Numbered from the stretch's first letter, positions 28,559 through 56,773 are shown. The stretch is DNA of 64,000 nucleotides from Verrucomicrobiota bacterium JB023 (GCA_030673895.1 JAUTCR010000070.1:1-64000), one strand, 5' to 3'. A program made the numbers and translations. Notes: generated by a model not told the origin, from the sequence alone.

Positions 28559-29761
28559 TCACTCTTTTGATGAAGGGTCCGGCTCGGGTTGGCTCGCTGG
28601 CGAGGTTTCTTGCCCGAAGGCAGTCAAGGTTCCCCAGGAGACGTGTTGGCTGTGAGAACCTTCCGGTCGCTGTTCGCGGGCAACTCTCTCACTCCAAGGG
28701 AGTTCGAGTCCCCGGCGATCCCGATAATGGTGAAGGACGCGCTCATAGATGGGACGGAAGCGTCCGCGTCCCTTGCTGGATAGCTCCTCGTAGTCATAGC
28801 GGCCATCGATGCTGCGGAAGCGGCGATAGGGGACCTCTTCACCGAGATTGTACTTCGCGCTGTATTCGAAACCGAGGGCGAGGCGGTTGTCGTGTGCGGC
28901 ATAGAGATCAACGCCTTGCTTCCACGCGATTTCGCAGGCGACCCCTAGGTAGCCCAGACCCATCTGGACGTGTAGCTGGTCGCGACCGCTTTCCTGGCAT
29001 TGGCCGATTTCGTTGAGGTAATTGCCGATCGCTCCATTGCCTTCGCCTTCCCGGTAGTAGGTCACCGCGCGATCGAACATGGGTCGATCATCGAGAAATA
29101 TGCCCATCGCCATCATCGTCTGAATCATGGATGCGTCCCAATTCCCATTGGCGCTGGGGTGGAAATCTTCGATGACAGGGTAGAACACCTCACGCAGCAT
29201 CTGCTCGAAGCGCGCTTGCCCCTCATCGGGCCAATCGCCGCCCAAGTGCCTGAGAAGCTCGGCCGCATTAAGGTAATCGATGCCGTCCATCCCTATCAAG
29301 AGGCGGGCGTCGTGGCCTTTAATTGTCTCCAACGTCGCGGACCAAGCATCAATGATCTCGATGGCTTTGCGGGCGTGGTCCTTTTCTCCAGTCAGAGCCC
29401 ATTGCAGGGCATGGAGGTAGGCGGCACCGCCATCACGGGTGAAGTCCGAGCTGCCAATATCGGGACGGGCTCTGGCCCCACGCACGACGTCAGCCCGCGG
29501 CTGAGGCTTGTAGCTGAGAGAGGCGTCCGGCGACTCTTGCATGTTTTGCCAAGCTGACTGCCAGGGCTCTTCTTGTTGTGCCAATTTTGCGCGTATGAAA
29601 TCGAGTTCGTCCTCGGTGTGGAGCAGGCCAGGATGGACGAAGGGTTTCTCCAGAGCATCGTCTGCGGGAAGGGAGGGTGCGAAGAGGAAAAGTGCCAGCA
29701 GGGTGAGGAGGCTACGTGACAACACGGTCGAGAAAGTAGGTGCGAGCATCAGCCAACCCAT
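28559..29761 (-). CDS. Secreted alginate-lyase-fold protein
   Basis: From the ATG at 29761 the protein has 400 residues with a signal peptide (MGWLMLAPTF ... LFAPSLPADD). The alpha/alpha-barrel features of the alginate lyase superfamily (PF05426) are seen: FVHPGLLHTEDELDFIRAKL at the mature N-terminus, GAAYLHALQWALTGEKDHARKAIEIIDAW, IGMDGIDYLNAAELLRH, and the NGNWDASMIQTMMAMGIFL active-site-like stretch. The C-terminal region (AAHDNRLALGFEYSAKYNLGEEVPYR) fits too. Many members have not been tested and the fold also degrades other uronates, so the substrate is open. It lies just upstream of the divergent operon at 29982. Confidence 0.75.
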   Translation of the reverse strand: MGWLMLAPTFSTVLSRSLLTLLALFLFAPSLPADDALEKPFVHPGLLHTEDELDFIRAKLAQQEEPWQSAWQNMQESPDASLSYKPQPRADVVRGARARPDIGSSDFTRDGGAAYLHALQWALTGEKDHARKAIEIIDAWSATLETIKGHDARLLIGMDGIDYLNAAELLRHLGGDWPDEGQARFEQMLREVFYPVIEDFHPSANGNWDASMIQTMMAMGIFLDDRPMFDRAVTYYREGEGNGAIGNYLNEIGQCQESGRDQLHVQMGLGYLGVACEIAWKQGVDLYAAHDNRLALGFEYSAKYNLGEEVPYRRFRSIDGRYDYEELSSKGRGRFRPIYERVLHHYRDRRGLELPWSERVAREQRPEGSHSQHVSWGTLTAFGQETSPASQPEPDPSSKE

Positions 29762-29981
29762 ACGGAAGGCGGGAGGGGTGGTCTTCAAGAAATCGTGCGC
29801 TCCAGAGTGACTGCTTTGGGAACGGGCCTGGGGCCGCATCTCCCGGGGGAGAAGGGGCTGAGAAATTAGTATGTGGCAGTTAATAAGCGGACTCTCCGGA
29901 TGTGGATTTTTGCTATTTTTAAGCCCGTTATTCCGATTTTTTTGAGGTTGCAGGAGTTCGCTGTGGGTTTTTGGATAAGTT

Positions 29982-30851
29982 ATGCCAAATCCATGGACTG
30001 GTGTGGGGAATCCCTACACGAGGCAAGAAGTCGTCGAGCGTCTGCAAGATACCCTCTCCCGAGGGGAAGCTATCATCGTTGCTGGAGCCGGAACCGGCAT
30101 CAGCGCCAAGTTTATCGAAAAAGGGGGAGCGGACCTCATCATCGTCTATAATTCCGGCCGTTTTCGCATGTCCGGACATGGTTCCACAGCCGGCTTGATG
30201 GGCTACAGCGATGCCAATGCGGTGGCGATGGAGATTGGCGAGTTCGAGGTGCTGCCCGTGGTGCAAGAGATCCCGGTGATTTGCGGGGTGCATGCCTCGG
30301 ATCCGCGTCGGCGGATGTGGCACTTCCTGCAGCAGGTGAAGGGTATGGGCTTCAGCGGGGTGAACAACTTTCCCACTCATGCCATCGTGGATGGCCACTT
30401 TCGCCAGACACTTGAGGAGACTGGCATGAGCGTGAAGAAGGAGGTCGATATGATCGCTCTGGCTCACAAGATGGACATGTTCACCATTCCCTATGTGGTT
30501 TCTCCACAGGAAGCCAAGGAGATGGCGGAGGCGGGGGCCGATGTGGTCATCGCGCATGTTGGCTGCACCATCGGAGGCTCAATCGGGGTGACCGATGCCA
30601 CTGTTTCCATGGATGATGCGGTCAGCGCGGTTCAGTCCGTCTGTGATGCGGTTCATTCCGTGCGCAAGGATGCCATCGTTTTAAGTCACGGTGGGCCTGT
30701 TCTCACGCCGGAAGACGCGGCTTACGTCAATGAGCATACAGATGCCGTGGGTTTCGTCGGGGCGTCGAGCTTGGAGCGGATGGCGGTGGAGGCTCCTCTC
30801 ACCGAGATTGCGAAAGCCTTCAAGGCGATCCCAGTGAAGCGCAAATACTAG
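29982..30851 (+). CDS. TIM-barrel protein of the phosphoenolpyruvate hydrolase-like family
   Basis: The 289-residue protein starts MPNPWTGVGNPYTRQEVVERL, the typical start of PF09370 proteins. It holds IIVAGAGTGISAKFIEKGGADL, VYNSGRFRMSGHGSTAG, PVVQEIPVICGVHASDP, GVNNFPTH, IAHVGCTIGGSIGV and a terminal VGFVGASSLERM, consistent with a (beta/alpha)8 barrel. The activity of the bacterial family is not firmly established despite the name. It is the first gene of a four-gene operon (gaps of 7, 4 and 7 bases). In plants and fungi this domain is fused to the Tm-1-like domain encoded by the next gene. Confidence 0.88.
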   Translation: MPNPWTGVGNPYTRQEVVERLQDTLSRGEAIIVAGAGTGISAKFIEKGGADLIIVYNSGRFRMSGHGSTAGLMGYSDANAVAMEIGEFEVLPVVQEIPVICGVHASDPRRRMWHFLQQVKGMGFSGVNNFPTHAIVDGHFRQTLEETGMSVKKEVDMIALAHKMDMFTIPYVVSPQEAKEMAEAGADVVIAHVGCTIGGSIGVTDATVSMDDAVSAVQSVCDAVHSVRKDAIVLSHGGPVLTPEDAAYVNEHTDAVGFVGASSLERMAVEAPLTEIAKAFKAIPVKRKY

Positions 30852-30858
30852 ATTTCTC

Positions 30859-32055
30859 ATGGCAACCATCGCAGTTATCGGAACCCTTGACTCAAAGGGC
30901 GCGGAGCACGGCTTCATCGCGGAGGAGATTCGCCGCGGCGGCCATCAGCCTTTGCTGATTGATGTTGGCACTCTTGGCGAGCCAACCGTTCAGCCGGACT
31001 ATACCCGTGAGGACGTGATCACGGCTGGCGGGATTGACTTTCCAGAAGCCGAGGATCGGGGGGAGCGAGTCGTGGCCATGGCTTCGGCGGTGCCGGTCTT
31101 CCTCAAGAAGCTCTGTGATGAGGGCAAAATCGACGGCGTCATTTCCTTGGGAGGTGGTGGTGGCACAGCCATTGCGACCGCAGGGATGCGGGCGCTTCCG
31201 GTCGGCTTTCCCAAGTTGATGGTTAGCACGCTGGCGAGTGGGAATACGGCGCATTACGTCGGGACGAAGGATATCGTCATGTTTCCCAGCATCGTCGATG
31301 TGGCGGGGCTGAATCAAATTTCACGCACCATCTTCACCCGCGCGGCGGGCGCCATCTGCGGCATGGTGGAGAAGAAGGTCGAGAGTGGTGGAGATAAGCC
31401 TCTCATCGTCGCGAGCATGTTCGGCAACACCACCGAATGCGTCGATGCCGCTCGCGAGATGCTGGAGGATGCTGGATATGAAGTTCTCGTCTTTCACGCC
31501 ACCGGCACGGGGGGACGCACGATGGAGTCCCTCATTGAGAGCGGGATGGTGGCCGGTGTCTTCGATGTCACCACGACCGAGTGGGCTGACGAGCTGACTG
31601 GCGCGACCCTCTCCGCAGGGCCCGAGCGGCTCGATGCGACAGGTAAGGCCGGTGTGCCTGCCATCGTCGCGCCGGGTTGCCTGGATATGGCCAACTTCGG
31701 TGAACGGGAGACTGTTCCCGAACAATTCGAAGGACGCAACTTCTACATTCACAACCCCCAGGTCACCTTGATGCGCACCTCTCCCGAAGAATGCGCCCAG
31801 CTGGGTAAAATCCTGGCGGAGAAGGTGAACGCCTACACTGCCCCCGTCACTGTCATGCTGCCGACCAAGGGCATCAGTGTGATCAGCGCCGAAGGGCAGC
31901 CCTTCCACGATCCGGAAGCGGACGCCGCACTTTTCCAGGCCATTAAGGACAATCTCTCCGATGGCATCGAGGTGATCGAGGTGGACGCCACGATCAACTC
32001 TCCTGAATTTTCTACTGCTTGCGTGCAAGCTCTCCTGAACAACCTCAAATCTTAA
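30859..32055 (+). CDS. Tm-1-like (UPF0261) family protein
   Basis: The 398-residue protein starts ATIAVIGTLDSKGAEHGFIAEEIRRGGH, the UPF0261 signature. It has GVISLGGGGGTAIATAGMRALPVGFPKLMVSTLASGN and the second Rossmann-like half (KPLIVASMFGNTTECVDAAREML, ATGTGGRTMESLI). The tomato homologue Tm-1 inhibits tobamovirus replication; its crystal structure shows an ATP-binding site, but the normal biochemical role of the family is unknown. It follows the PEP-hydrolase-like gene after 7 bases and precedes the Dabb gene after 4 bases, so one transcript is likely. Confidence 0.9.
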   Translation: MATIAVIGTLDSKGAEHGFIAEEIRRGGHQPLLIDVGTLGEPTVQPDYTREDVITAGGIDFPEAEDRGERVVAMASAVPVFLKKLCDEGKIDGVISLGGGGGTAIATAGMRALPVGFPKLMVSTLASGNTAHYVGTKDIVMFPSIVDVAGLNQISRTIFTRAAGAICGMVEKKVESGGDKPLIVASMFGNTTECVDAAREMLEDAGYEVLVFHATGTGGRTMESLIESGMVAGVFDVTTTEWADELTGATLSAGPERLDATGKAGVPAIVAPGCLDMANFGERETVPEQFEGRNFYIHNPQVTLMRTSPEECAQLGKILAEKVNAYTAPVTVMLPTKGISVISAEGQPFHDPEADAALFQAIKDNLSDGIEVIEVDATINSPEFSTACVQALLNNLKS

Positions 32056-32059
32056 ACCC

Positions 32060-32368
32060 ATGCCTCAAGTCAAACACTACGGTTGCTTTCAATTCAAAGA
32101 AGGCGTCACCGAATCCCAGATCGAAAATTGCTTCACCACCATGGCTGACATGGTTGGCGTCATCCCCGGATTATTGGACTTTCACTACGGTCCTTACGAC
32201 TCGGATGAAGGATTGAATGACGGCTTCACTCACGGATTCATCATGACCTTCGAGAGCCCGGAAGCGCGCGATGCCTACTTGCCTCATCCCGTCCACGAGG
32301 ACGTCAAGGATGTGGTCGTTCCTTGCTTGGAGCGAATCGTGGTCTTCGATTTCAACATGCCCGGGTAA
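32060..32368 (+). CDS. Dabb (dimeric alpha/beta barrel) family protein
   Basis: The 102-residue protein fits the Dabb family: VKHYGCFQFKEGVTESQIENCFTTM for the first strand and helix, HYGPYDSDEGLNDGFTHGFIMTFES for the middle, and YLPHPVHEDVKDVVVPCLERIVVFDFN for the C-terminal His-containing strand-helix. Dabb proteins form small ferredoxin-like dimers; some are stress proteins, others are enzymes of catabolic pathways such as olivetolic acid cyclase-like proteins. Here it sits inside a tight catabolic-looking operon, so a small-molecule enzyme is likelier than a stress role, but this is inference. Confidence 0.88.
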   Translation: MPQVKHYGCFQFKEGVTESQIENCFTTMADMVGVIPGLLDFHYGPYDSDEGLNDGFTHGFIMTFESPEARDAYLPHPVHEDVKDVVVPCLERIVVFDFNMPG

Positions 32369-32375
32369 TCTCTCG

Positions 32376-33545
32376 ATGGACGATTTTTTCAGCTCCCGTT
32401 ATCCTTCGGTGGAGCATCTGCGTGCCGGCGCTCGTCGGCGGATGCCTCGTTTTGCCTTCGAATATCTGGAAGGCGGATGCTTCTCTGAGGTCAATCTGAA
32501 GCGGAATACGGAGGAGATTCGGGAGACGCAGCTGAGGCCTTGGTATTTGCGGGATTTCGCGGGGAGTTCGCTGAAGACGGAGCTGTTCGGTAAGACCTAT
32601 GACGCGCCCTTCGGGATTGCGCCGATCGGCCTGCAGGGGCTGATGTGGCCGGGATCCACCGAGATCTTGGCCAAAGCGGCCCGGCAGCACAACATCCCCT
32701 TCACCTTGAGCACGGTGGGGACGGCCAGCATTGAGACGGTAGCCGAACTGACCGAGGGCGAGGCGTGGTTTCAACTCTATCATCCGGCAGAGGAGGAGCT
32801 CCGCGATAAACTGCTCGAGAGGGCCTGGGAGGCAGGGATCAAGGTCCTGGTCATCTTGGCCGATACTCCGACCTTCGCCTGGCGACCCAAGGAGATTCGC
32901 AATGGCCTCTCGATTCCGCCACAGATGTCGGTGCGGAACGTTCTTCAGATGGTCGGCAGCCCGTTCTGGTCCTTTGGTCAACTCGCGGCAGGGGTGCCGG
33001 AATTCAAAACAATGAAGCCCTATATCCCTAAAGGGCTGAGCATGAAACATCTCGGCTTGTTCATGAATAAGACCTTCTCGGGGCGACTCAGCGCGGATCG
33101 CATCTCCGCCATCCGGGATCGATGGAAGGGCAAGCTGGTTGTCAAAGGCATCGTCAATTGTGACGACGCGGAGAAGGCGATTGGCCTGGGCGTCGATGGT
33201 CTCATCGTTTCCAATCACGGGGGCCGTCAGCTTGATTTGGGCGAATCGACCATCCGACCGCTTTCAGTTCTCGCTTCCGAATTCGGTGACCGCACGACCC
33301 TGATGATTGATAGTGGCCTACGGGAAGGCCCGGATGTGGCGGCGGCTTTGGCCAGCGGTGCAAGATTCGCCTTTTTGGGACGTTCTTTCATGTATGGTGT
33401 CGGTGCACTTGGTCAACGGGGAGGGATGCACACCATCACTCTTCTCAAGCGGCAGCTACAGCAAGTGATGGAGCAGGTGGGCTGTGAGCAGGTGACGAAT
33501 CTGCCCGATCATCTCCTCACCACTCCCTCCGAAGGCTGCAGCTGA
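32376..33545 (+). CDS. FMN-dependent alpha-hydroxy-acid dehydrogenase/oxidase
   Basis: From the ATG at 32376 the protein has 389 residues and shows the glycolate oxidase/L-lactate dehydrogenase fold: RMPRFAFEYLEGGC at the N-terminus, FGIAPIGLQGLMWPGSTEILAKAA, PFTLSTVGTASIETVAEL, WFQLYHP and KVLVILADTP. The catalytic KGIVNCDDAEKA is followed by SNHGGRQLD (with active-site His) and LMIDSGLREGPDVAAALASGA. It oxidises a 2-hydroxy acid to a 2-oxo acid using FMN. The substrate cannot be read. It ends the operon that begins at 29982 and starts 7 bases after the Dabb stop. Confidence 0.93.
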   Translation: MDDFFSSRYPSVEHLRAGARRRMPRFAFEYLEGGCFSEVNLKRNTEEIRETQLRPWYLRDFAGSSLKTELFGKTYDAPFGIAPIGLQGLMWPGSTEILAKAARQHNIPFTLSTVGTASIETVAELTEGEAWFQLYHPAEEELRDKLLERAWEAGIKVLVILADTPTFAWRPKEIRNGLSIPPQMSVRNVLQMVGSPFWSFGQLAAGVPEFKTMKPYIPKGLSMKHLGLFMNKTFSGRLSADRISAIRDRWKGKLVVKGIVNCDDAEKAIGLGVDGLIVSNHGGRQLDLGESTIRPLSVLASEFGDRTTLMIDSGLREGPDVAAALASGARFAFLGRSFMYGVGALGQRGGMHTITLLKRQLQQVMEQVGCEQVTNLPDHLLTTPSEGCS

Positions 33546-33616: not shown

Positions 33617-36600
33617 ATGAAATTAAGAAAACTCATCTTCATCTCGCTTCTGGCAAGTCTGCCGGGGCTGGGTGTCTTTGCCGAAAGTGAACAACCCGAT
33701 CCTGAAGCGGTCTCGCTCTTTGACGGCAAGACTTTGGAAGGTTGGGAATATAACGAGTCAATCTGGCGGGTGGAAGACGGGGCCATCACTGGTGGGTCCC
33801 ACGACAAAAAATTCCCCAAGAACGACTTCATCAGCACGAAGAAGACCTACGGGAATTTTGACCTTAGCCTGAAGATCAAGTGCTCGGGTGATCCTGAAAC
33901 CGGATTGATCAATAGCGGCATCCAGATCCGCAGTGCCCGGCTGCCCAACGGAAGAGTGGCAGGTTATCAGGTCGATTGCGGGGACGAGTGGTTTGGGAAA
34001 ATCTACGACGAACATCGTCGCCGTCTCATCTATCCCGAACCACTCAATGAAGCCAAACTTCTGGAGAATATCGACACCTTCGGTTGGAACGAATATCGCA
34101 TCCTTGCAGAGGGCCCACGGATACAAGTGTGGATCAATGGCATCAAGGCTAGCGACTACACCGAGAAGAATCCGCGCATCCCGCTTAATGGCATCATTGC
34201 GCCCCAGGTTCACTCCGGAGGGCACGTCAAAGTCCAAGTGAAGGACGTGATGATCAAGGAACTGCCGCCGACCAAGGACGCTCCGACTTGGGAGAGCTTG
34301 GGCGGACCGAAGGCAGCTCTCTCCAAGGTGAAACCGAATCGCGGGCAGAAGAACAATGCCAAGAAGCCAGCGGCTAAAAATGACGAAGAAGCGGCTGAAG
34401 CAGGGAAAGAGAAGAATGTCCCGAAGGCCAAGTATGTCTGGGACGGACGCGGGAAAAAAGACACGAGCTACAACAAGGTCGATGCAGACCCGCGGCCGGC
34501 GACCGAGCAATTGGAGATGTTCAATGTGGCCGACGGATATGAAATCGAATTGGTTGTCCAAGAGAGCGAAGGGATCGGCAAATTCGTTGCTGTTTACTTC
34601 GATCAGCGGGGGCGGCTGTGGACGCAGACCGCACTCGAGTATCCCGTCGATGCCAAGGACAATCCTTCCGCGGCCAACGCTCTTTATCAAAGCCACGCGC
34701 GGGACAAGGTGCTCGTTTATTCCCGGGAGTCGCTTGAGGACATCCCGGAGGGTGGGCTGACCGATCCCACCGTGTTTGCTGACGGCTTGGCCATTCCGCT
34801 AGGCATTCTCCCGTGGGGTAACGGGGACTCGGCTTACGTCTTGCACGGCCCTGATGTGATTCACTTCACCGATACGGATGGCGACGGAAAGGCGGACCAG
34901 CGCAAGGTGATCCTGACCGGGATGGGGGTGCAGGATAGCCACCTCTTCCCGCACCAATTTACTCGGGCTCCCGGCGGTTGGATCTGGATGGCCCAAGGGC
35001 TTTTCAATACCAGTGATGTGAAGACTCCCGGGGAAAAGAAAGGCACTCCTTGGCGGAAGTGCTCTCTGGCGCGAGTCCGTCCCGATGGCACCGAGTTCGA
35101 GGTTGTGACGACGGGTCCGAACAATATCTGGGGCCTTGCCATGACAGGAGAAGGGGAGACCTTCATCCAGGAAGCGAACGACTTTGGCTACCCCGTGATG
35201 CCTTTCCACGAATTCGCCTACTATCCCGGCGGGATGAGAGGTTTAAAGAAAACGTATCAACCTTCATTTCCTCCAGAGGCCGAGTTCCGCATGGGAGGCA
35301 CCAGCTTGAGTGGCCTATCCTTGCTGGAGAGTGGTCCGGTGGTTGACGAAGAGGCCGAGCACACCATGTTGGTCGCCAATCCTATCATTTCGACGGTGCA
35401 GACCCTCGGGATGCACCGCAATGGGCCTCGCTGGGACTTGGAGCAAATCCCGTCCCTGGTTTCTTGCGATGACCCTCTGTTCCGACCCGTTGCACTAACT
35501 CAGGGCCCGGACGGCTGCATCTACATTGTGGATTGGTATAATAAGGTCATTTCCCACAACGAGGTGCCCCGTAATCACCCCGACCGTGACAAGACGCGCG
35601 GACGTATCTGGCGCATCAAGCCCAAGGACGCCGGCACCTTGCCAGACTTCACCCAGCTCAGCGACGAGGACGTTCTCGCCATGCTGGGCACCAAGCCCAC
35701 TGCCCGGGCCCACATGGCGTGGCAGACGCTCGCCGACCGCGCAGAGGAAAGTGATTCGGTCAGAGCGTCTCTCCGGGGTATCGTTGGCGACAGTTCGGCA
35801 AGTGATGCCCGCCGCATCCAAGCCTTTTGGGCCTTGGATGATGCGGATACGCAGGCCAGAAGGTTCCTCGCTTCGCCCAATCGCAATGTCCGCCGCGAGG
35901 CGGTGGAAGCCGGAATCGGAGCAAAAAAGGCGGTGAACGATCCGGATTCCGAAGTCCGGTTTGCCGCTCTGACTTATCTTGGTCGTCAGCTGCCGAAGGA
36001 TGCGGAGGAGATCATTCCTATTCTTGTCGGTGCCGTGAAGCCCTCCTTGTCCGAACCGACCGTCATCTCTTCCCGAACCCGCGAGCCAATCCCGGCGGAA
36101 GATGCTTACGATCGTGAGTTCGAGCGTTACCTTATCCGTCTTTTCCTCGAGAAGCATCCGGGTGAGGTCGCTACCTTCCTTGACTCAGAGGCATCACAAT
36201 CTCTTCCTGCAGAAGGTCGCATTCTTGCTTCGCTCGCCTTGCCACCCAAGGAAAGCGCCGCCCGGGTCGCGGCCATCCTGCCCGAGCTGGACCGTGCTCC
36301 GGATAGCGAGGAGCTTCTTCGCTTGGCCGAATTCCCCGGAGCCCCGGGTGCCCAAGAGACGCTCACCAAGTTGCTGCAGAATCCCGAGTCCCGCGATCAT
36401 GTGGCCTCGCAATTGCTCGACTTGAAAACCCGTCTCGATGCCAAAAAGATGGCGACCCTGCTCACCGAGCCAGCTCGGGAGTTATTGAAGGGGGAAGCGG
36501 CTTCAACCGGCTTTGAACTGGCCGGTGCGTTCAATCTCACGGCTCTCGCTCCCGATCTTCTCGCCGCTCTCGAAGCGAAGAAGGACGAGCCAGCCGAACA

Positions 36601-38017
36601 AGTCAAAGCACTCAACGCCTTGGCTTTGCTCGGAAGCAAGGAAGTGGACAGCTTGGGCTCTCTCGCAGAGACGACCGACCATGCGGAGGTCAAGGAAGCG
36701 GCTCTCAAAGCCTTGGCGGCATCGCCCAATCCAGCAGCGGCAGACAAGCTCATCGCTCTCTACCCCGATCTCAGCTTGCCCCAACAGCGCAGCGTTCTGG
36801 CAGGTCTCAGTTCCAAGAAGGCGAGCGCCAAGAAGCTGGTGACAGCGCTTGTCGAAGAGCGAATCTCGCCGGAGGTCATTGATGTTTCCATCGCGGAGCG
36901 CTTGGCCACGGTTCTCGGAGACGACCCCGCACTTGATACTTTAGTGAAGGAGCTGAGCAATGTCTTCCGGAATATCCTGGTGCTTGATGGCACCCCGGGA
37001 GCTTCCGTTCCGACCAAGGTCACGGTGCCCGGTCCATTCACCATCGAAGCTTGGGTCCGATTGGCCCCCGGGATCAATAACCGGGACATCCTCTTAAGTG
37101 GCGCGAACAACTTCCAGCTCAACTTCAACAACACTCATCTAACGGTCCACGCCGGCAAGCCAACTGGCGATGTGGCCAAGGCTCAGGTCCCGATCTCTCC
37201 CGAGCTCTGGACGCACATCGCGGTCACTCGTGATGAGAGCGGGGAAGTTACCATCTATCTGGATGGTGAATTGGACTCCGTTGGAACGAAGAAGACGACT
37301 GACCCATTCGAGCTGATCACCATCGGCCAGCCCGGCAGATTCGCACAAAGCCAAATGGCGGTCAGCGAGTTCCGCATCTGGGGCAAGGCGCGTTCCGGAG
37401 AGGAGATTCGGCGCACCTTTGACCGCAGCTTTGTCGACGTGGCGAAGCCAGCAGGTCTCGTCTTCTACAATGCCGGAGGCGGAAGCAGCTGGCGGGAGAT
37501 GACGGAAGGAGCCCGCGTGGTGCCGACCACCGACCTGCCGCCTCTCCTGACTGCGGCGGAAGCGGAAGCTCTCGACGCCAAATTCGCCAAGTATCTGGCG
37601 CTTGCCGAACAAGGCGGGGATGTCGAAAAAGGTGCGGTGCTTGCCCCGCTGTGCACCTCTTGTCATGTCATTGACGGGCAGGGTGGGCTAATCGGGCCAG
37701 AGCTGAGTGGCGCGGGAGCGATGGGCATCGAAGGGCTTCTGCGGAATATCATCACTCCGAATGCGGCCATGGAGTCGGGCTACCGCATCTACCGGGTCGA
37801 GATGAAGAGTGGTGAGATCATCGACGCCTTCTTTGTTCGCCAAGACAAGCAAGCCGTGGTCATCCGGCAAGCCGGGCTTCCCGACCGTCGCATTCCCAAG
37901 AGTGACATTCGGAAAACAACCTTCATCCGTCGCAGCTTGATGCCGGAGGGGCTTCTCGATGGCTTGAATGACGAGCAGGTGGCTGATCTTTTGGCCTATC
38001 TGATGACTCTCAAGTAA
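33617..38017 (+). CDS. Giant PVC-type heme protein: DUF1080 + dehydrogenase domain + HEAT + LamG + cytochrome c
   Basis: From the ATG at 33617 the protein has 1466 residues with a signal peptide (MKLRKLIFISLLASLPGLGVFA). Residues about 30-220 are a DUF1080/3-keto-disaccharide hydrolase domain (SLFDGKTLEGWEY ... VQVKDVMIKEL). About 300-680 form a PVC membrane-bound dehydrogenase domain (GYEIELVVQESEGIGKF, RGRLWTQTALEYP, DNDGCIYIVDWYNKVISHNEVPRNHPDRD-like). About 700-1110 are HEAT-like repeats, and about 1130-1270 a LamG-like lectin domain (FTIEAWVRLAPGIN ... WTHIAVTRDESGEVTIYLDG). The end is a heme-binding module with CTSCH near residue 1345. A single protein carrying a glycan-binding, a glycoside-cleaving and an electron-transfer part suggests oxidation-coupled glycan cleavage. 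It opens the sulfatase locus. Confidence 0.88.
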   Translation: MKLRKLIFISLLASLPGLGVFAESEQPDPEAVSLFDGKTLEGWEYNESIWRVEDGAITGGSHDKKFPKNDFISTKKTYGNFDLSLKIKCSGDPETGLINSGIQIRSARLPNGRVAGYQVDCGDEWFGKIYDEHRRRLIYPEPLNEAKLLENIDTFGWNEYRILAEGPRIQVWINGIKASDYTEKNPRIPLNGIIAPQVHSGGHVKVQVKDVMIKELPPTKDAPTWESLGGPKAALSKVKPNRGQKNNAKKPAAKNDEEAAEAGKEKNVPKAKYVWDGRGKKDTSYNKVDADPRPATEQLEMFNVADGYEIELVVQESEGIGKFVAVYFDQRGRLWTQTALEYPVDAKDNPSAANALYQSHARDKVLVYSRESLEDIPEGGLTDPTVFADGLAIPLGILPWGNGDSAYVLHGPDVIHFTDTDGDGKADQRKVILTGMGVQDSHLFPHQFTRAPGGWIWMAQGLFNTSDVKTPGEKKGTPWRKCSLARVRPDGTEFEVVTTGPNNIWGLAMTGEGETFIQEANDFGYPVMPFHEFAYYPGGMRGLKKTYQPSFPPEAEFRMGGTSLSGLSLLESGPVVDEEAEHTMLVANPIISTVQTLGMHRNGPRWDLEQIPSLVSCDDPLFRPVALTQGPDGCIYIVDWYNKVISHNEVPRNHPDRDKTRGRIWRIKPKDAGTLPDFTQLSDEDVLAMLGTKPTARAHMAWQTLADRAEESDSVRASLRGIVGDSSASDARRIQAFWALDDADTQARRFLASPNRNVRREAVEAGIGAKKAVNDPDSEVRFAALTYLGRQLPKDAEEIIPILVGAVKPSLSEPTVISSRTREPIPAEDAYDREFERYLIRLFLEKHPGEVATFLDSEASQSLPAEGRILASLALPPKESAARVAAILPELDRAPDSEELLRLAEFPGAPGAQETLTKLLQNPESRDHVASQLLDLKTRLDAKKMATLLTEPARELLKGEAASTGFELAGAFNLTALAPDLLAALEAKKDEPAEQVKALNALALLGSKEVDSLGSLAETTDHAEVKEAALKALAASPNPAAADKLIALYPDLSLPQQRSVLAGLSSKKASAKKLVTALVEERISPEVIDVSIAERLATVLGDDPALDTLVKELSNVFRNILVLDGTPGASVPTKVTVPGPFTIEAWVRLAPGINNRDILLSGANNFQLNFNNTHLTVHAGKPTGDVAKAQVPISPELWTHIAVTRDESGEVTIYLDGELDSVGTKKTTDPFELITIGQPGRFAQSQMAVSEFRIWGKARSGEEIRRTFDRSFVDVAKPAGLVFYNAGGGSSWREMTEGARVVPTTDLPPLLTAAEAEALDAKFAKYLALAEQGGDVEKGAVLAPLCTSCHVIDGQGGLIGPELSGAGAMGIEGLLRNIITPNAAMESGYRIYRVEMKSGEIIDAFFVRQDKQAVVIRQAGLPDRRIPKSDIRKTTFIRRSLMPEGLLDGLNDEQVADLLAYLMTLK

Positions 38018-38089
38018 GAATCGGAGGCAATCCGAGTAGATTGCTTGGAGAAGGGGAGAGAAATCTCCCTTTCGCTCCTTCTTGTTTTC

Positions 38090-39637
38090 ATGAAATCACA
38101 TTCGCGTTTTTGTCAGGCACTGGCTTGGTTGTCGTTCGGGCTGATGAGCGGTGCCGGCCCGACCCTGGCGGCAGCTTTGACGCTAGGCTCACCCTTCACC
38201 GATCATGCGGTCTTGCAGCGGGGGAGCCAAGTCCCCGTCTGGGGGCAGGCGGAGGCAGGAGACACCATTACGGTGGAGTTTGCCGGTCAGAGCAAGGAAG
38301 CGAAAGCCGATGCCGGGGGGAGCTGGCGAGTCGATTTGGACCCGCTCTCCTCCTCTGCCGAGCCGGCAGTCCTTACGGTGCGGAGTGCCGGAGGGGAGAG
38401 CATCGAATGCGAGTATGTCTTGGTGGGCGAGGTGTGGATATGCGCCGGTCAATCGAACATGGTTTTCCAGGTCGGAAAATCCCCCGGAGTGAAAGCCTTG
38501 GAGCCTAAGGCGGAAAATATCCGCAGTTTCGAGGTGAAGCAGATGGTGGCATTCACGGAACAGGATCAGCTCGAAGGTGAATGGGTGAGCCATCATCCGG
38601 ATAGCGCGGTCGCCTTCTCCTTTGCCTACCATCTGGAAGAAGCTGCCGGAGTGCCGGTGGGGATCATTCTTTCCGCCTGGGGGAGTTCTTCGCTCGAGGC
38701 TTGGATGCCTCGGGACATGACCGAGACCGTGCCTCATTTCAAAACCATGATGGAGGAGTTCGACGCGGACACCGTGACCCGGGAGCGCATCAGTGATATC
38801 CTATCAGGTCCCCGTCCTTGGAGTGGGCGGGACGACATCTTTCTCCGCCGTCAGACCAATATCCTCTACAATGCAATGATTCACCCGCTCATACCCTACG
38901 CTTGCCGCGGCGTGGTTTGGTATCAGGGAGAGCGGAATACCCAGTCGTTAGAGGGAATGCAGAAAACTCCCTGGTTCTCGCGGAATTCCGGGATGCTGCG
39001 CTATGGTGACACTCTACAGAAGTGGATTCGCCGCTATCGCCAAGCTTGGTCAAATGACGAGATGCAGTTCCTCATCGTGATGCTGCCGGGTTATCACAAG
39101 TTGTTGAAAACCGGGCCGCGTGGAGGTCCCGAGGACCCGAACCCTCATTCCTGGGCTTGGATGCGCGAATCCCAGCTGCAAGCCGAATCGCTTCCGCACA
39201 CGTCGGTTGTGAACACGATCGATCTAGGTGACGTCAAAAACATCCATCCCAGTGACAAGCTGCCTATCGGCCAGCGTCTCGCTCTCCTGGCCGCCCGCGA
39301 TACTCTCGGGCAAGAGATTGAGGCGAGCGGGCCGGTTATGGAAAAGATCGAGGTGGAGGAGGAGGCCATCACGGTTCACTTCCGACATGGCGACGGCCTT
39401 CACACGACGGACGGAAAGGCCCCGTCCGCTTTTTGGATCAGTGGGGAGAAGGAACACTGGGTTCCTGCGCAAGCCGAAATCGTGAATGGAAGCGTGCGCC
39501 TGAGCTCGCCCAATGTTAAGAATCCACGCTTTGTTCGCTACGCTTTCGCAGGGAAGCCACGCGTGAACTTGGTCAATCAAGCCGGGCTGCCAGCCTATCC
39601 GTTCCGCACTGATGCCTTTGCTCCCGCTTCGAGATAA
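38090..39637 (+). CDS. Secreted sialate O-acetylesterase-like carbohydrate esterase
   Basis: From the ATG at 38090 the protein has 515 residues, with a signal peptide (LAWLSFGLMSGAGPTLAAA). After a beta-sandwich region (FTDHAVLQRGSQVPVWGQAEAGDTITV) it carries the SGNH-like esterase domain: GEVWICAGQSNM (catalytic Ser122), HPLIPYACRGVVWYQGERN and the Asp/His region NIHPSDKLPIGQRLAL. The family (SASA, PF03629) removes acetyl groups from sugars, classically 9-O-acetyl sialic acid, but in PVC bacteria it is mostly linked to other acetylated polysaccharides. It sits between the heme protein and the first sulfatase (22-base gap), which fits removal of acetyl groups from a sulfated glycan. Confidence 0.88.
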   Translation: MKSHSRFCQALAWLSFGLMSGAGPTLAAALTLGSPFTDHAVLQRGSQVPVWGQAEAGDTITVEFAGQSKEAKADAGGSWRVDLDPLSSSAEPAVLTVRSAGGESIECEYVLVGEVWICAGQSNMVFQVGKSPGVKALEPKAENIRSFEVKQMVAFTEQDQLEGEWVSHHPDSAVAFSFAYHLEEAAGVPVGIILSAWGSSSLEAWMPRDMTETVPHFKTMMEEFDADTVTRERISDILSGPRPWSGRDDIFLRRQTNILYNAMIHPLIPYACRGVVWYQGERNTQSLEGMQKTPWFSRNSGMLRYGDTLQKWIRRYRQAWSNDEMQFLIVMLPGYHKLLKTGPRGGPEDPNPHSWAWMRESQLQAESLPHTSVVNTIDLGDVKNIHPSDKLPIGQRLALLAARDTLGQEIEASGPVMEKIEVEEEAITVHFRHGDGLHTTDGKAPSAFWISGEKEHWVPAQAEIVNGSVRLSSPNVKNPRFVRYAFAGKPRVNLVNQAGLPAYPFRTDAFAPASR

Positions 39638-39659
39638 CTCGCCCAACTTAGAATAATCG

Positions 39660-41105
39660 ATGAACAGACAGAAAAACCGACTTTCCATTTCTCTCCTGAC
39701 CGGGCTTATCGCTTTGTTGGGTCCATCCATCCGGGCTGAGGAGCCCGGGGATGGAAAGGAGGCCAAGCAACCCAATTTTGTGGTCATCCTAACCGATGAC
39801 CAAGGATACGGCGACTTGAGCTGCTATGGATCCGATCATGTGACCACGCCGAATATTGATCGAATGGCGGCGGAGGGCGCCAAGCTGACCAGCTTCTATG
39901 TTGCCGCTCCGGTATGCACGCCCTCCCGGGCCGCCTTGATGACGGGCTGCTATGCTCCCCGCGTTGGCATGGGGCGGGGTTCCAGGCACGGGGTTCTCTT
40001 GGCCGGAGACGTCAAAGGGCTCAATCCCAAGGAAATCACGATCGCCGAAGTGCTGAAGGATGCCGGCTACAAGACTGGCATGTTCGGCAAGTGGCACTTG
40101 GGCGATCAGCCGGAATTCCTGCCCACCCGGCAGGGATTCGACGAGTTTTTTGGCCTTCCCTACAGTCACGATATCCACTCCTTCCACCCTCGGCAGGACC
40201 ACTATCAGTTTCCTCTTCTTCCGCTCTTGGAAGGTGAGGAAGTTGTCGAGATGGAGCCGGATGCCGACTACCTGACCAAGCGCTTCACGGAGCGGGCAGT
40301 GAAGTTCATTGAGAAAAATAAGGAGGAACCATTCTTCGTCTATCTTCCACACCCTATTCCGCATGCTCCCTTGCACGTCTCACCACCCTTCATGGAGGGG
40401 GTGCCGGAAGGCATCGTGGAAAAACTGGCGAAGGAGGATGGGTATATCGACTACCGCACGCGCGACGAACTTTATCGTCAAGCGATTGCCGAGATTGATT
40501 GGTCCGTGGGCCGCATCCTCGAGACCCTCAAGGCCAATGGGCTGTCCGAGAACACCCTAGTCATCTTCACCTCAGACAATGGGCCTCCGAGAAATACACT
40601 CTATGCAAGCCCCGGCATCCTGAGAGGAAATAAGGGCAGCACCCTGGAGGGCGGTATGCGCGAGCCCACCGTCGCGTGGTGGCCGGGGACGATTCCTGCG
40701 GGCAAAGATAATGACGAGGTGATGACCACGATGGACTTGCTCCCAACCTTTGCCAAACTTGCGGGAGGCAAGGTTCCCGATGATCGGGTGATCGATGGCA
40801 AGGATATCGCGGCGACCTTGCGGGGAGAGGCTGAGACTCCTCATGAAACTTTCTTCTACCACAGTGCGAATACCCTGCAGGCAGTGCGAGCGGGCGACTG
40901 GAAGCTGCACTGGAATAAAAAGAGAAAACCAACCCAGCTCTACAATCTGGCGGATGATCCTGGTGAATCCCAAAACCTCTTGAAGGAAAATCCGGAGATT
41001 GCCTCTCGATTGGCCGGATACATGAGAGCTTTCCAAAAGGAATTGGCTGCAAACAAACGTCCAGCCGGTTTTGTTGACCAAGCCGAGGCACTGTCAAAGG
41101 ACTAG
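39660..41105 (+). CDS. Secreted sulfatase 1 (arylsulfatase-A family)
   Basis: The 481-residue protein has a signal peptide (LTGLIALLGPSIRAEE) and a complete S1-type active site: TDDQGYGD (metal), CTPSR with C86 as the formylglycine precursor, GKWHLG, LPHPIPHAPLHV, TSDNGPP and the lysine-bearing GNKGSTLEGGMREP. It cleaves a sulfate ester from a sugar in the periplasm or outside the cell; the substrate is unknown. A rho-independent terminator follows (41157-41188), so this gene may end an upstream transcriptional unit. Sulfatases need a maturating enzyme, which I do not see here. Confidence 0.95.
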   Translation: MNRQKNRLSISLLTGLIALLGPSIRAEEPGDGKEAKQPNFVVILTDDQGYGDLSCYGSDHVTTPNIDRMAAEGAKLTSFYVAAPVCTPSRAALMTGCYAPRVGMGRGSRHGVLLAGDVKGLNPKEITIAEVLKDAGYKTGMFGKWHLGDQPEFLPTRQGFDEFFGLPYSHDIHSFHPRQDHYQFPLLPLLEGEEVVEMEPDADYLTKRFTERAVKFIEKNKEEPFFVYLPHPIPHAPLHVSPPFMEGVPEGIVEKLAKEDGYIDYRTRDELYRQAIAEIDWSVGRILETLKANGLSENTLVIFTSDNGPPRNTLYASPGILRGNKGSTLEGGMREPTVAWWPGTIPAGKDNDEVMTTMDLLPTFAKLAGGKVPDDRVIDGKDIAATLRGEAETPHETFFYHSANTLQAVRAGDWKLHWNKKRKPTQLYNLADDPGESQNLLKENPEIASRLAGYMRAFQKELAANKRPAGFVDQAEALSKD

Positions 41106-41156
41106 CCTGACCAACTAGGCGAAAAGGTTAAGCCTCCGGCGGCTTGCATCAGGAAA

Positions 41157-41188
41157 GAAGAATGCCCTAGGGTATTCTTCTTTTTTTT
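41157..41188 (+). terminator. Rho-independent terminator after sulfatase 1
   Basis: GAAGAATGCCC (41157-41167) pairs with GGGTATTCTTC (41170-41180; one G-T pair), followed by eight T residues (41181-41188). It is strong and lies 51 bases past the sulfatase stop. The remaining bases to 41371 are AT-rich and would hold the promoter of the PEP-CTERM gene. Confidence 0.93.
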
Positions 41189-41371
41189 GCAATGCCCGCC
41201 CTTAATTAGGTTTTCTGAACATGCGGGAAGAACGGGAATATTAAAAATAGATTGAGATATCTATCCCTTGATTGATTGATGAGTCGACGTGGTTCTGCGA
41301 TATGCAGAGGTTGAGTCGGAGCTGCCTATCACCTTGTTTCCTCAGCGTCCCGAGACATGAATAGGGAAACC

Positions 41372-42079
41372 ATGAAAACCCGTTTAGCTACAGTTGTCCT
41401 CACGGCGAGTCTTTCCTTGCCTCTTCACGCAGCCCTGACCGTCGGACAGACGGTTGGAATCGATTTTGGTGCCGATGCTCCAACCGGGACTGTTATCTTC
41501 AATCAATTTAATACCCAGACACTGGATACCGAGTCCGCCGATTTCGATGGCACTTTGCAAAGCACCGAGGGCTTGGACCTCTTGGGGCTTGGTTTCTCGG
41601 TAACGAACAACATGGGCAAAGATTCAGGACTGACGATTGTCAGTGGAACGAGTGGCCCAAGTCCTTTTGACCCAGCTTCGATCTATCAAGATAGCTACGG
41701 AGCCGCCAACGTCGGTAATAGCTCTCGTCCCGATTTCGGGCGTCTTCCCGCAGGTGCGAACCTTCTCTTCACTTTCACCGGCCTTGATCCGCTCCTGACC
41801 TATGATGTCACCGGTGGTTTCGACAGTGACAACGTGAACTTTAATACGACGTGGACCTCGGGCGGATTGACGGATACCACCGACCCAGCCGGAGGGTCAG
41901 GTTACGTGACCTTGGCCGGTCTATCACCCGATGGATCGGGAACGCTCGAAATAACGGTGACCAAGAGCACACAGCTTTTCGTTTCAGGTTTGACCCTGAC
42001 CGCGGTTCCCGAGCCCTCTTCAGCCTTTCTTGCCGGTCTCGGCCTGATGGGGCTTCTGGCGCGCCGCTCCCGTCGGTAA
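41372..42079 (+). CDS. Secreted PEP-CTERM protein (unknown function)
   Basis: From the ATG at 41372 the protein has 235 residues. A signal peptide (MKTRLATVVLTASLSLPLHAA) leads into a beta-rich body (VGQTVGIDFGADAPTGTVIFN, LLFTFTGLDPLLTYDVTGGF) and the C-terminal sorting tail VPEPSSAFLAGLGLMGLLARRSRR. The tail is the canonical PEP motif, transmembrane helix and Arg cluster. The body does not match the paralog pair at 18840 and 19964. It stands between a terminator and the second sulfatase, so it may be a surface or biofilm protein produced with the locus. The upstream ATG at 41357 is an alternative start. Confidence 0.85.
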   Translation: MKTRLATVVLTASLSLPLHAALTVGQTVGIDFGADAPTGTVIFNQFNTQTLDTESADFDGTLQSTEGLDLLGLGFSVTNNMGKDSGLTIVSGTSGPSPFDPASIYQDSYGAANVGNSSRPDFGRLPAGANLLFTFTGLDPLLTYDVTGGFDSDNVNFNTTWTSGGLTDTTDPAGGSGYVTLAGLSPDGSGTLEITVTKSTQLFVSGLTLTAVPEPSSAFLAGLGLMGLLARRSRR

Positions 42080-42105
42080 GACGCGGGAATCCGCAAACAG
42101 CCAGG

Positions 42106-42143
42106 GGGAGCTCGCTTTATCCTAAACGAGGGAAGAGGCTCCC
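42106..42143. other. Intergenic hairpin without U-tract
   Basis: GGGAGC (42106-42111) pairs with GCTCCC (42138-42143), around a weaker inner CTCG/CGAG pair. It lies after the PEP-CTERM stop, in the gap before sulfatase 2. Confidence 0.5.
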
Positions 42144-42315
42144 GCTGCTTCTGGTGTGACTTCTCGCTCATCGCGCCATTTTCTCTCAGTCGAGTGGATG
42201 GCGGATTGAGCGCGAAGCAGAGGCTGTTGAAAACTGGTGGCCTCTTTCTCTGTATTCCATGGGAGGTTCCACTTTCCGAACCCGTTTGTTAGGCTACTCA
42301 AATTGCTTTTTAGGA

Positions 42316-43719
42316 ATGTTTTTACCCTTTTTTAACTCATCGAAACGCTCGCTTCTCATTGTCAGCCTCTGCTTGACGGTTCTCATCGCAAGAGGAGCAC
42401 CGCCCAATTTGATCCTCATCTTCACGGATGACCAAGGCTATCAAGATGTCGGCAGCTACGGATCGCCGGACATCAAGACGCCCCGACTTGATCAGATGGC
42501 CGCGGAGGGAATGCGGTTCACCGATTTTTATGCCCAGACGGTTTGTGGCCCCTCTCGCGCGGCATTGATGACAGGCTGTTATCCTCTTCGGGTGGCGCGT
42601 CACGGGGACCCGAATTCGATCCATCCCGAGCTGCATGCTGATGAGATTTTGCTACCCGAGCTTCTGAAGAAGCAAGGTTACACCACCGGCATGTTCGGCA
42701 AGTGGGACTTGGCTGGGCACAATCCTTCCAAGTTCATCCCCGAGCTTCGGCCCGAGAAGCAAGGCTTTGACGTGACCTTCTGGACGCCGGGAAGCAATGA
42801 CGGTTACGTCAATCTTTATCGAGGCGCTGAAAAGATCGAGACCAAGGCGAATATGGCGACCTTAACCCGTCGCTACACCGATGAGGCTCTCCAGTTCATG
42901 GAAGAACAAAAGGACGGACCTTTTTTCGTCTATCTGCCGCACACCATGCCGCACACCCGCTTGGCAGCTTCCAAGGATTTCAAAGGTCAGTCAGAAGCTG
43001 GTCTTTATGGCGATGTCATTGAGGAGCTTGATCACCATATCGGTCGGGTATTGGACAAGGTCAATGAGCTGGAGATTGCGGAAAACACCTACGTCATCTT
43101 CACCAGCGACAATGGCCCTTGGTTGATCCGGAAGGCTCATGGCGGCCATGCCCACCCCTTGCGCAGCGGCAAGACCTCCTGCTGGGAGGGCGGGCTGCGC
43201 GTCCCGTGTATCATGTGGGCACCGGGCCGTATCCCGGCTGGCTCGGAAACAAGTGCCATCACGGCGACGATCGATCTGATGCCGACTTTGGTGGGCTTGG
43301 CAGGTGGGGAACCTCCTACAGACCGGGTCATCGACGGCATCGACATCCTCGACGTCATGCACGGTCAGAAGAAGCAAACGTCTCGTCCTTATTACTACTA
43401 TCAGCATGATTGTTTGAGAGCGGTACGCGACGGCAAGTGGAAGTTGATGCTGCCGCATACCGAACCGGTCAAGGGGAGCATCGCCACCAAATGGCGCCAG
43501 CACATTGCGCCTGCCGACGCCAAGCGAATTACCGAGCCCCAGCTCTACGATCTCCATGCGGATATCGGTGAATCCACTAACTTGGCCAAAGAGCATCCGG
43601 AGATCGTCTCCAAGCTGCTCTCGCTCGCTGATGAAGCGCGGAAGGATATTGGGGATCACGATCGCTTTGGCGAGAATGCCCGCCACTTCGGTGCGGAGAA
43701 GAGGACGCTGACAAAGTAG
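42316..43719 (+). CDS. Secreted sulfatase 2 with altered GKWD motif
   Basis: From the ATG at 42316 the protein has 467 residues and a signal peptide (KRSLLIVSLCLTVLIARGA). It has TDDQGYQD, CGPSR (C77), LPHTMPHTR, TSDNGPW and GKTSCWEGGLRVP. The motif that normally reads GKWHLG is GKWDLAG (K129, D131), so the conserved active-site His is Asp. A start at 42259 would give a 486-residue protein with a longer N-terminus. It may act on an unusual substrate. The next sulfatase begins 37 bases after the stop, in line with co-transcription. Confidence 0.9.
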   Translation: MFLPFFNSSKRSLLIVSLCLTVLIARGAPPNLILIFTDDQGYQDVGSYGSPDIKTPRLDQMAAEGMRFTDFYAQTVCGPSRAALMTGCYPLRVARHGDPNSIHPELHADEILLPELLKKQGYTTGMFGKWDLAGHNPSKFIPELRPEKQGFDVTFWTPGSNDGYVNLYRGAEKIETKANMATLTRRYTDEALQFMEEQKDGPFFVYLPHTMPHTRLAASKDFKGQSEAGLYGDVIEELDHHIGRVLDKVNELEIAENTYVIFTSDNGPWLIRKAHGGHAHPLRSGKTSCWEGGLRVPCIMWAPGRIPAGSETSAITATIDLMPTLVGLAGGEPPTDRVIDGIDILDVMHGQKKQTSRPYYYYQHDCLRAVRDGKWKLMLPHTEPVKGSIATKWRQHIAPADAKRITEPQLYDLHADIGESTNLAKEHPEIVSKLLSLADEARKDIGDHDRFGENARHFGAEKRTLTK

Positions 43720-43756
43720 CCCATCCTCCTTACTTTAAAACAAACCCAACGAACAA

Positions 43757-45274
43757 GTGAAAGCTTCCTACCAAGCAATTTTGACCGGTCTGCTTAGCCT
43801 TATGGGCGGCGCGGTGAATGCCGAGACGACCGGCCCGCCTAACATCGTTCTCATCTATGCTGATGATATGGGCTATGGAGACGTGCAGACACTCAATCCG
43901 GAGCGGGGGAAGATCCCGACGCCACATCTCGATGAGCTCGCGGAGGAGGGGATGATCTTCACCGATGCGCACACCACGTCGTCGGTCTGCACCCCCAGCC
44001 GGTACAGCCTTCTAACAGGTCGATACAATTGGCGGACCAGCCTCCAGAAGAGCGTTCTCTGGGGCTACAGCCAACCGATGATCTCCGCTGATACCCTGAC
44101 TCTCGGGCAGTTGCTGCAAGAGAACGGCTACGACACCGCCATGATTGGCAAGTGGCATCTGGGGATGGATATCCCGACCTTGGATGGGCAGCCGATCAAG
44201 GATGTTCGTCGTTTGCCCAAGACCTCGATCGATTGGGACGGAGAGATCAAGGAAGGCCCGACGGCAAGGGGCTTTGACTACTTCTTCGGTATCTCGGCTT
44301 CACTCGATATGGCTCCTTACGTTTATATCGAGAACGAAAAGTTCCTTGGGGAAGTGGACAACAATGCGCCGGAAGAGCCTGCGGATGGCTTTGCTCGTAT
44401 TGCCGTTTTGGATGAGTTAGGCGAGCGGTCGGCTGACTATGTTAAGGCGAGGGAAGGGGACAAGCCGTTCTTCCTCTACGTTCCCTTGACCTCTCCTCAC
44501 ACCCCGATTCTCCCGACAAAGGAGTGGCAAGGTCGAAGCGGGATCAACAAGTATGCTGACTTTCAGATGCAGACGGATGCCGTGATCGGACAGATCGTTG
44601 ACGCGGTCGATGAGGCGGGATTTGGCGAGAATACCCTCATCATCGTCAGTAGTGACAATGGCTGCTCCAAGGCAGCAAAGTTCAGGGAACTCGAGGCTGC
44701 CGGCCATTACGCCAGCGCCCAATACCGAGGTTCGAAGGCGGACCTTTGGGAGGGCGGCCATCGGGTCCCTTTCCTTGTTCGCTGGCCGGCGCAGGTGAAG
44801 GCCGGAAGCCAATCTGATGAAACAATCTGTCTGACGGATTGTCTGGCGACCTTTGCGGAACTGGTCGACTTCGAGATCCCCGCCGATGAAGGAGAGGACA
44901 GCGTGAGCTTTCTCCCAGCCCTCCGCGGTGAGGCAATTGATTCAGCTCGCAAGGGCATCGTCCATCACTCCATTTCCGGCCACTTTGGTTACCGTATGGG
45001 TGACTGGAAGCTTCTCCTCGCGAAGGGGTCCGGAGGATGGACCCGGCCCACGGAGAAAGACCTGGCGAACAAGGAGGAGGTACCGAAGGGACAGCTCTAC
45101 AACTTGGCCGAGGATCCCGGTGAAGAAAACAACCTCTTCGAAGAAAAGCCTGAGATTGTTTCGAAGCTCCTGGCTCAACTCAAGGAGGATATTGCCAAGG
45201 GGAGAAGCACGCCGGGACCGCAGCAGGATAACGATATCCCGGTCTCTGAAATCCGACTTTGGAAGAACAAATAG
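43757..45274 (+). CDS. Secreted sulfatase 3
   Basis: The 505-residue protein starts at a GTG and has a signal peptide (ILTGLLSLMGGAVNAE). Motifs: YADDMGYGD, CTPSR (C78), GKWHLGMD, PLTSPHTPI, VSSDNGCS, KADLWEGGHRVP. It is close in sequence to sulfatase 5 (47077): both have NPERG after the metal motif, FFGISASLDM and a GRSTPGPQQ/GRSTAGPEQ end with a final LWK. They look like copies of one gene flanking sulfatase 4. Substrate unknown. Confidence 0.95.
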   Translation: MKASYQAILTGLLSLMGGAVNAETTGPPNIVLIYADDMGYGDVQTLNPERGKIPTPHLDELAEEGMIFTDAHTTSSVCTPSRYSLLTGRYNWRTSLQKSVLWGYSQPMISADTLTLGQLLQENGYDTAMIGKWHLGMDIPTLDGQPIKDVRRLPKTSIDWDGEIKEGPTARGFDYFFGISASLDMAPYVYIENEKFLGEVDNNAPEEPADGFARIAVLDELGERSADYVKAREGDKPFFLYVPLTSPHTPILPTKEWQGRSGINKYADFQMQTDAVIGQIVDAVDEAGFGENTLIIVSSDNGCSKAAKFRELEAAGHYASAQYRGSKADLWEGGHRVPFLVRWPAQVKAGSQSDETICLTDCLATFAELVDFEIPADEGEDSVSFLPALRGEAIDSARKGIVHHSISGHFGYRMGDWKLLLAKGSGGWTRPTEKDLANKEEVPKGQLYNLAEDPGEENNLFEEKPEIVSKLLAQLKEDIAKGRSTPGPQQDNDIPVSEIRLWKNK

Positions 45275-45457
45275 CACGGTCGCGGAAGGCGGGCTGTTCT
45301 CCCTCAGGGTTGGCGGATCTGACCTGTCCCGAAGGGCTTTGGTGGATCCTGGTAAGGCCGATGAGGAGTCCGCTTATGCATCATCGAAGAAATCCATTCA
45401 TCTCCACCCGTTGCTGAAAGAGACTGGCAGTCTGGGCGTTGAAGATGGGTGGCCCGA

Positions 45458-45495
45458 GCGGGAAGGTTTCCTACTTTCAAGCTGCCTTTTCCCGC
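45458..45495. other. Intergenic hairpin without U-tract
   Basis: GCGGGAA (45458-45464) pairs with TTCCCGC (45489-45495). It lies in the 245-base gap between sulfatase 3 and sulfatase 4, just before the sulfatase 4 start. The rest of the gap shows no gene. Confidence 0.5.
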
Positions 45496-45519
45496 AACGT
45501 CGCTGAAATATTGATCAAC

Positions 45520-47064: not shown

Positions 47065-47076
47065 TCGAGACAAATC

Positions 47077-49946: not shown

Positions 49947-49959
49947 ACCCCTCCCTCCT

Positions 49960-49989
49960 GCTTCACCAAGCCGCCCCGGCGGTTGAAGC
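49960..49989. other. Intergenic hairpin without U-tract
   Basis: GCTTCA (49960-49965) pairs with TGAAGC (49984-49989), with a CCAA bulge and an inner GCCGCC/GGCGGT stem. It sits between sulfatases 6 and 7. A GC-rich stretch follows, no T-run. Confidence 0.6.
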
Positions 49990-50033
49990 GGGACGCCCGC
50001 GCGAGTCGTCACCATGACAAGGCTCTCAAACCT

Positions 50034-56761: not shown

Positions 56762-56773
56762 GAAGCTGACGGC

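Follow-up and report, generated by a model that had tools for sequence, protein, structure and literature searches.

A conserved catabolic gene set around the PF09370/UPF0261 pair, found in a new combination in Verrucomicrobiota bacterium JB023

Proteins of the families UPF0261 and PF09370 (TIM-barrel signal transduction, TBST) are widespread in bacteria and near-universal in land plants (PMC5028733). In bacteria, archaea and fungi the two are generally encoded by separate, co-evolving genes (Yang et al., 2016, PMC5028733); 97.4% of TBST-bearing bacterial genomes also carry UPF0261, and in streptophytes a fused Tm-1-like protein is found, in the order UPF0261 then TIM barrel (PMC5028733). Tomato Tm-1 (3wrw, 3wrx, 3wry) carries its own C-terminal TIM barrel and is known for inhibiting replication of tomato mosaic virus (ToMV). 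The literature found on UPF0261, COG5441, COG5564 and PF09370 comprised the 2016 study of their evolution and incidental references, none of which assigned the pair a joint reaction. Apart from Tm-1, the nearest solved UPF0261 structure is 9mpy, the Novosphingobium aromaticivorans protein Saro_1862 with bound acetovanillone. Acetovanillone catabolism in that organism is reported to begin with a single-component kinase, MarK (PMC13101465). Here a 64,000-nucleotide (nt) stretch of Verrucomicrobiota bacterium JB023 (Verrucomicrobiales), referred to below as the window, was analyzed around adjacent PF09370 and UPF0261 genes that are followed by genes for a Dabb protein and an FMN-dependent dehydrogenase (FMN_dh). 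The catabolic gene set around the known pair is real and conserved, and stands here in a new combination.

Four co-directional genes at 29982-33545 were confirmed, with Pfam assignments far above the curated cut-offs. All four lie on the + strand with intergenic gaps of 7, 4 and 7 nt, in agreement with the 4 to 7 bases first given for the Dabb and FMN_dh genes. The initial annotation described them as a four-gene operon; the tight unit was borne out, but it extends further, through a fifth gene to 38017 and then a hairpin:

29982..30851, + strand: PF09370 'PEP hydrolase-like' TIM barrel, 289 amino acids (Pfam E 3.5e-108)
30859..32055, + strand: UPF0261 / Tm-1-like ATP-binding protein, 398 amino acids (Pfam N and C domains, E 3.2e-60 and 1.9e-93)
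32060..32368, + strand: Dabb (stress-responsive dimeric alpha/beta barrel) protein, 102 amino acids (Pfam E 1.3e-23)
32376..33545, + strand: FMN_dh, FMN-dependent (S)-2-hydroxy-acid dehydrogenase, 389 amino acids (Pfam E 2.9e-114)
33590 or 33620..38017, + strand: fifth gene, DUF1080/DUF7133/cytochrome c, from domain matches
38050..38073, + strand: terminator-like hairpin with a 10-bp stem, after the fifth gene

The TIM barrel thus precedes UPF0261, the reverse of the plant fusion, and Dabb, FMN_dh and a PVC heme protein are added. The separateness of the two genes had been singled out as notable; it is already published as the prokaryotic norm (PMC5028733) and is therefore not a finding. Matches of relatives to the FMN_dh version starting at ATG 32376 begin at residues 1-6, so that FMN_dh and Dabb do not overlap; the longer mechanical open reading frame (ORF) from 32271, which overlaps Dabb, was rejected, as relatives gave it no support. 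The fifth gene begins 44 or 74 nt after FMN_dh, depending on its start, of which ATG 33620 is the likely one from the signal-peptide-like N terminus that it would give. It encodes 3-keto-disaccharide hydrolase (DUF1080), DUF7133/PVC-type, HEAT and LamG domains and a cytochrome c CxxCH motif. A strong hairpin was found only after this gene. The 91-nt stretch bearing it has a z-score of -3.4, the next likely start downstream is at 38090, and the first transcription unit probably ends at the hairpin (38050-38073). We infer that the five genes form a single transcript; they look like one catabolic transcription unit heading a sulfated-glycan utilisation locus.

Three sources supplied PF09370 loci: the window's order and phylum, about 85,000 scanned species genomes, and annotated plasmids. 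For the 119 loci whose PF09370 gene belongs to the main clade, neighbours within 6 kb were counted, and expected counts were derived from the copy numbers in the window's own genome. The 119 loci include near-duplicates, and the enrichment probabilities are a guide only. UPF0261 was found at 77 loci, on the same strand in 75 and with a gap of <150 bp in 64. Strong enrichment was seen for the PVC heme/DUF7133 gene (52/119 loci, 5.0 expected), Dabb (25/119, 1.2 expected) and glycerate kinase (6/119, 0.4 expected, each ≤1.5 kb from PF09370 or UPF0261). A cupin gene was present at 26 of the 119 loci and an AraC gene at 38, in 34 of these on the other strand. Locus L140, from Luteolibacter pohnpeiensis, carries both a cupin and a glycerate kinase gene. 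The set UPF0261, PF09370 and cupin was found in Rhizobium, Mesorhizobium, Haloterrigena, Haloarcula, Bacteroidota and Verrucomicrobiota. What is conserved is PF09370 and UPF0261 together with a cupin or Dabb and the PVC heme protein, and a divergently oriented AraC gene usually accompanies them. The initial annotation had proposed a metabolic pathway and named a four-gene order kept in unrelated phyla as the support to look for. A metabolic gene set centred on the Tm-1/TIM pair is indeed conserved, but the four genes as a unit do not make up a conserved pathway: their order was absent outside Verrucomicrobiales among the 119 loci and 20 annotated plasmid regions, two sets that partly overlap. 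At loci L041, L051, L054 and L157 a main-clade PF09370 gene occurs with a cupin or PVC heme protein and no UPF0261 nearby, so that the barrel may work with a kinase encoded elsewhere.

Dabb can be regarded as a true partner of the pair, as had been suggested, both from these counts and from its fusion to UPF0261 in one genome. The window protein matches PF07876 with 83.9 bits (gathering cut-off 25) over positions 1-95 of 96, and it has His and Tyr at the positions that they occupy in olivetolic acid cyclase, residues that we take to be catalytic. Dabb and cupin occurred together at one locus and alone at 24 and 25 loci, respectively (Fisher p 0.014); from this near-exclusive occurrence they were read as alternatives in one role. 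The fusion, in genome G539, is a single 515-residue ORF (L170 4520-6067, - strand) joining UPF0261 and Dabb in frame between PF09370 and FMN_dh. It could reflect loss of a stop codon or misassembly, the assembly being fragmented into hundreds of contigs, and it fits the neighbourhood evidence that UPF0261 and Dabb belong together.

The UPF0261 protein scored 203.6 bits with PF06792 and 312.1 bits with PF23189 and also passed the NF002674 subfamily cut-off. Its model (predicted local distance difference test, pLDDT, 90) was matched by Foldseek and VIA-align to Tm-1 (Z about 44, 39% identity), with which it shares fold and family, and to 9mpy (Z 32.5). Across 28 UPF0261 proteins, 9mpy and Tm-1 included, 22 positions do not vary, and the window protein keeps all of them, as does Saro_1862. 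By analogy with 9mpy, UPF0261 is proposed to be an ATP-dependent small-molecule kinase. On a Thermus plasmid (L188 7415-9278) a UPF0261 gene that lacks a PF09370 partner extends into the beginning of a class II aldolase gene, and in Shinella another partnerless UPF0261 gene adjoins a HAD-family hydrolase gene; such neighbours suit a kinase. Partnerless UPF0261 genes of Rhodobacterales and Shinella (L189, L190 and L192) have aldehyde dehydrogenases and class III aminotransferases in their vicinity, with phosphotransferases too in L190 and L192. In Variovorax (L060 5705-7957) the UPF0261 match lies within a protein of ~750 residues annotated as an ABC transporter permease, an apparent fusion.

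The PF09370 protein scored 361.3 bits (gathering cut-off 33.8) over the whole profile (1-267 of 267). Its N-terminal extension, MPNPWTGVGNPYTR, is common to relatives in Verrucomicrobiota and Bacteroidota and is lacking in 2p10 (Mll9387 of Mesorhizobium), a protein of the same family whose barrel is 47-49% identical. On pMLa of Mesorhizobium the related pair, unlike that of the window, is adjoined by a cupin and a Gfo/Idh/MocA oxidoreductase. The best match of the PF09370 model was 2p10 (Z 28.5), followed by the phosphate-binding barrels IGPS, TIM and TrpA (Z 16-18); the comparison covers the top families of the Foldseek and VIA-align lists, and no fold was excluded from lower matches. The protein also contains a nitronate monooxygenase (NMO)-like stretch, and the NCBIfam search gave a weak FabK stretch and no other match. 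On its modelled fold, PF09370 may be a phosphate-binding TIM barrel acting on a phosphorylated product. The lyase role was put forward because of this fold; assigning a function from fold alone was rejected, as TIM barrels of many kinds give like scores. A second, divergent PF09370 and UPF0261 pair lies elsewhere in the window's own genome (L164 12115-14271, contig C10), with genes for an AraC-type regulator, a sulfatase-family protein and an SDR close by; the profile score of its PF09370 is about half that of the window's.

The similarity to Tm-1 and 9mpy, the matches to phosphate-binding barrels and the aldolase and hydrolase neighbours make a kinase plus an enzyme acting on its phosphorylated product the most economical reading. 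In such a scheme UPF0261 would phosphorylate a hydroxyl group on a small carbon substrate at the expense of ATP, and the PF09370 barrel, with its phosphate-binding-type loop, would cleave or otherwise convert the phosphorylated product. Dabb would contribute a small isomerase/cyclase-type accessory step, performed by a metal cupin in other loci. FMN_dh, a dehydrogenase of the membrane-associated mandelate/lactate type, would oxidise a 2-hydroxy acid made en route and pass the electrons to the membrane. While gene set, order, conservation, fused ORF and conserved residues were observed directly, the kinase and lyase roles, the order of the steps and the nature of the acid are deduced from them, and we hold the chances of this kinase-then-lyase reading of the five-gene catabolic unit to be evenly balanced.

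Several observations weigh against it. The kinase precedent depends on MarK being Saro_1862, which is probable from the title of the paper, the organism and the ligand. Identity between the window UPF0261 and 9mpy is only about 33%, and in the tree the window protein groups with PF09370-associated proteins and 9mpy with the rest, across an open fork (87/94) with long branches. Saro_1862 would act in acetovanillone breakdown, and no acetovanillone-pathway biotin carboxylase, phosphatase or CoA ligase was found among the five genes or in the tract to 61 kb. UPF0261 was missing within 6 kb at 42 of the 119 PF09370 loci, at some of them through contig ends, and the near-duplicates make the enrichment probabilities too small. 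The PF09370 model has a mean pLDDT of 71.6 with weak loops.

The FMN_dh protein scored 382.2 bits with PF01070 and retains SNHGGRQLD, the catalytic segment with the FMN/substrate His and Arg. Its nearest solved structure is (S)-mandelate dehydrogenase of Pseudomonas (6bfg, 1huv), with which it shares family, catalytic segment and extra (membrane) segment, the alignment spanning a long segment missing in the soluble form. It reached no NCBIfam subfamily cut-off, and it fell short of those for LldD, the FMN-dependent L-lactate dehydrogenase (NF008398, 285.6 of 376 bits; NF033901, 249.2 of 550 bits). Among 190 genomes of the order, 61 carry an FMN_dh orthologue (at least 67% identity), 106 a main-clade PF09370 gene and 40 both, the overlap having been counted by hand from the two lists. 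FMN_dh lies within 11 kb of PF09370 in six of these 40, with 0.16 expected. The window and G539 share the contiguous order PF09370-UPF0261-Dabb-FMN_dh; G534 has UPF0261-Dabb-FMN_dh where a contig ends, and G480 and L068 have PF09370-UPF0261-FMN_dh with no Dabb; the genomes concerned belong to two families of one order. As a partner, FMN_dh is therefore sporadic but non-random: its adjacency was seen here only in one order, so that conservation in unrelated phyla does not hold, though its presence is beyond chance.

FMN_dh may instead be a passenger, a lactate-type dehydrogenase acting on lactate from the breakdown of sulfated-glycan sugars (e.g. fucose) and chemically unlinked to one pathway formed by PF09370, UPF0261, Dabb and the PVC protein. 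It lies away from the pair in 34 of the 40 genomes with both, its orthologues stand alone beside sulfatases elsewhere, and in the whole sample it was near PF09370 at only 3 of the 119 loci, with 0.8 expected. Set against this are the 7-nt junction, the recurrent adjacency in G000, G480, G534, G539 (two families) and L068, and its adjacency also at loci without Dabb. We consider the passenger explanation a real but minority possibility. Glycerate kinase and FMN_dh were never found in one PF09370 locus among those examined; speculatively, glycerate kinase at other loci and FMN_dh in the window may be two ways to use a 2-hydroxy acid.

PF09370 might be a true phosphonopyruvate or phosphoenolpyruvate (PEP) hydrolase, in an operon for phosphonates or PEP, as the title of 2p10, the family name and distant Foldseek matches to methylisocitrate lyase and PEP phosphomutase would have it. 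The name derives from fold only, no curated NCBIfam hydrolase or mutase was matched, and no phosphonate-metabolism annotation was seen among the neighbour genes inspected, which makes this improbable. Slightly less credible still is a sugar-nucleotide or epimerase-like UPF0261 in place of a kinase. It was considered because of a likeness between the N-terminal Rossmann domain and non-hydrolysing UDP-GlcNAc 2-epimerases (VIA-align, Z 10-12 across ~150 residues), but this match covers one common domain fold, and the closest solved relatives are Tm-1 and the aromatic-ketone-bound 9mpy. A regulatory pair controlling the glycan locus, as suggested by the older 'TIM-barrel signal transduction' annotation and the plant virus inhibitor (PMC5028733), is very unlikely given the absence of DNA-binding or signalling domains in the Pfam search, the AraC gene often adjacent and the enzyme-like neighbours (glycerate kinase, cupin, aldolase).

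With the kinase precedent and the conserved neighbours (cupin/Dabb, PVC heme protein, glycerate kinase, FMN_dh), an annotation gap becomes an assayable question: which hydroxylated compound the pair phosphorylates and converts. The answer also bears on the virus-free role of Tm-1; this virus-resistance factor of plants may, in its basic function, be an ordinary enzyme of metabolism. If the kinase-then-lyase reading is right, the Verrucomicrobiota operon (Dabb or cupin, FMN_dh or glycerate kinase) could, as a tentative expectation, reveal the remaining steps of the pathway.

The surroundings of the unit comprise two further features:

28559..29839, - strand: divergent alginate-lyase-like gene (PF05426)
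38090..61032, + strand: co-directional tract with a SASA-type esterase, ten sulfatases, a PEP-CTERM protein, a DUF7133/cytochrome c protein and GH97

The PF05426 gene occupies the place of the divergent AraC regulator of many relatives. Large minus-strand proteins at 18843-19862, 19967-22291, 22575-23720 and 23720-24898 gave no Pfam match. All predicted genes of at least 150 codons from 38090 to 61032 (23 kb) are on the same strand, and the co-directional tract headed by the five-gene unit measures 31 kb in total. With this sulfatase-rich tract downstream, the four-gene operon is the front of an apparent sulfated-glycan locus. Sulfatases were rejected as specific partners of PF09370: 18 were observed near it against 21 expected from the genome's count, which makes the association background, and the window's own tract is unusually rich, with ten of about 55 sulfatases in the whole genome. 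After the sulfatase tract an AraC regulator is encoded on the opposite strand (61060-62199).

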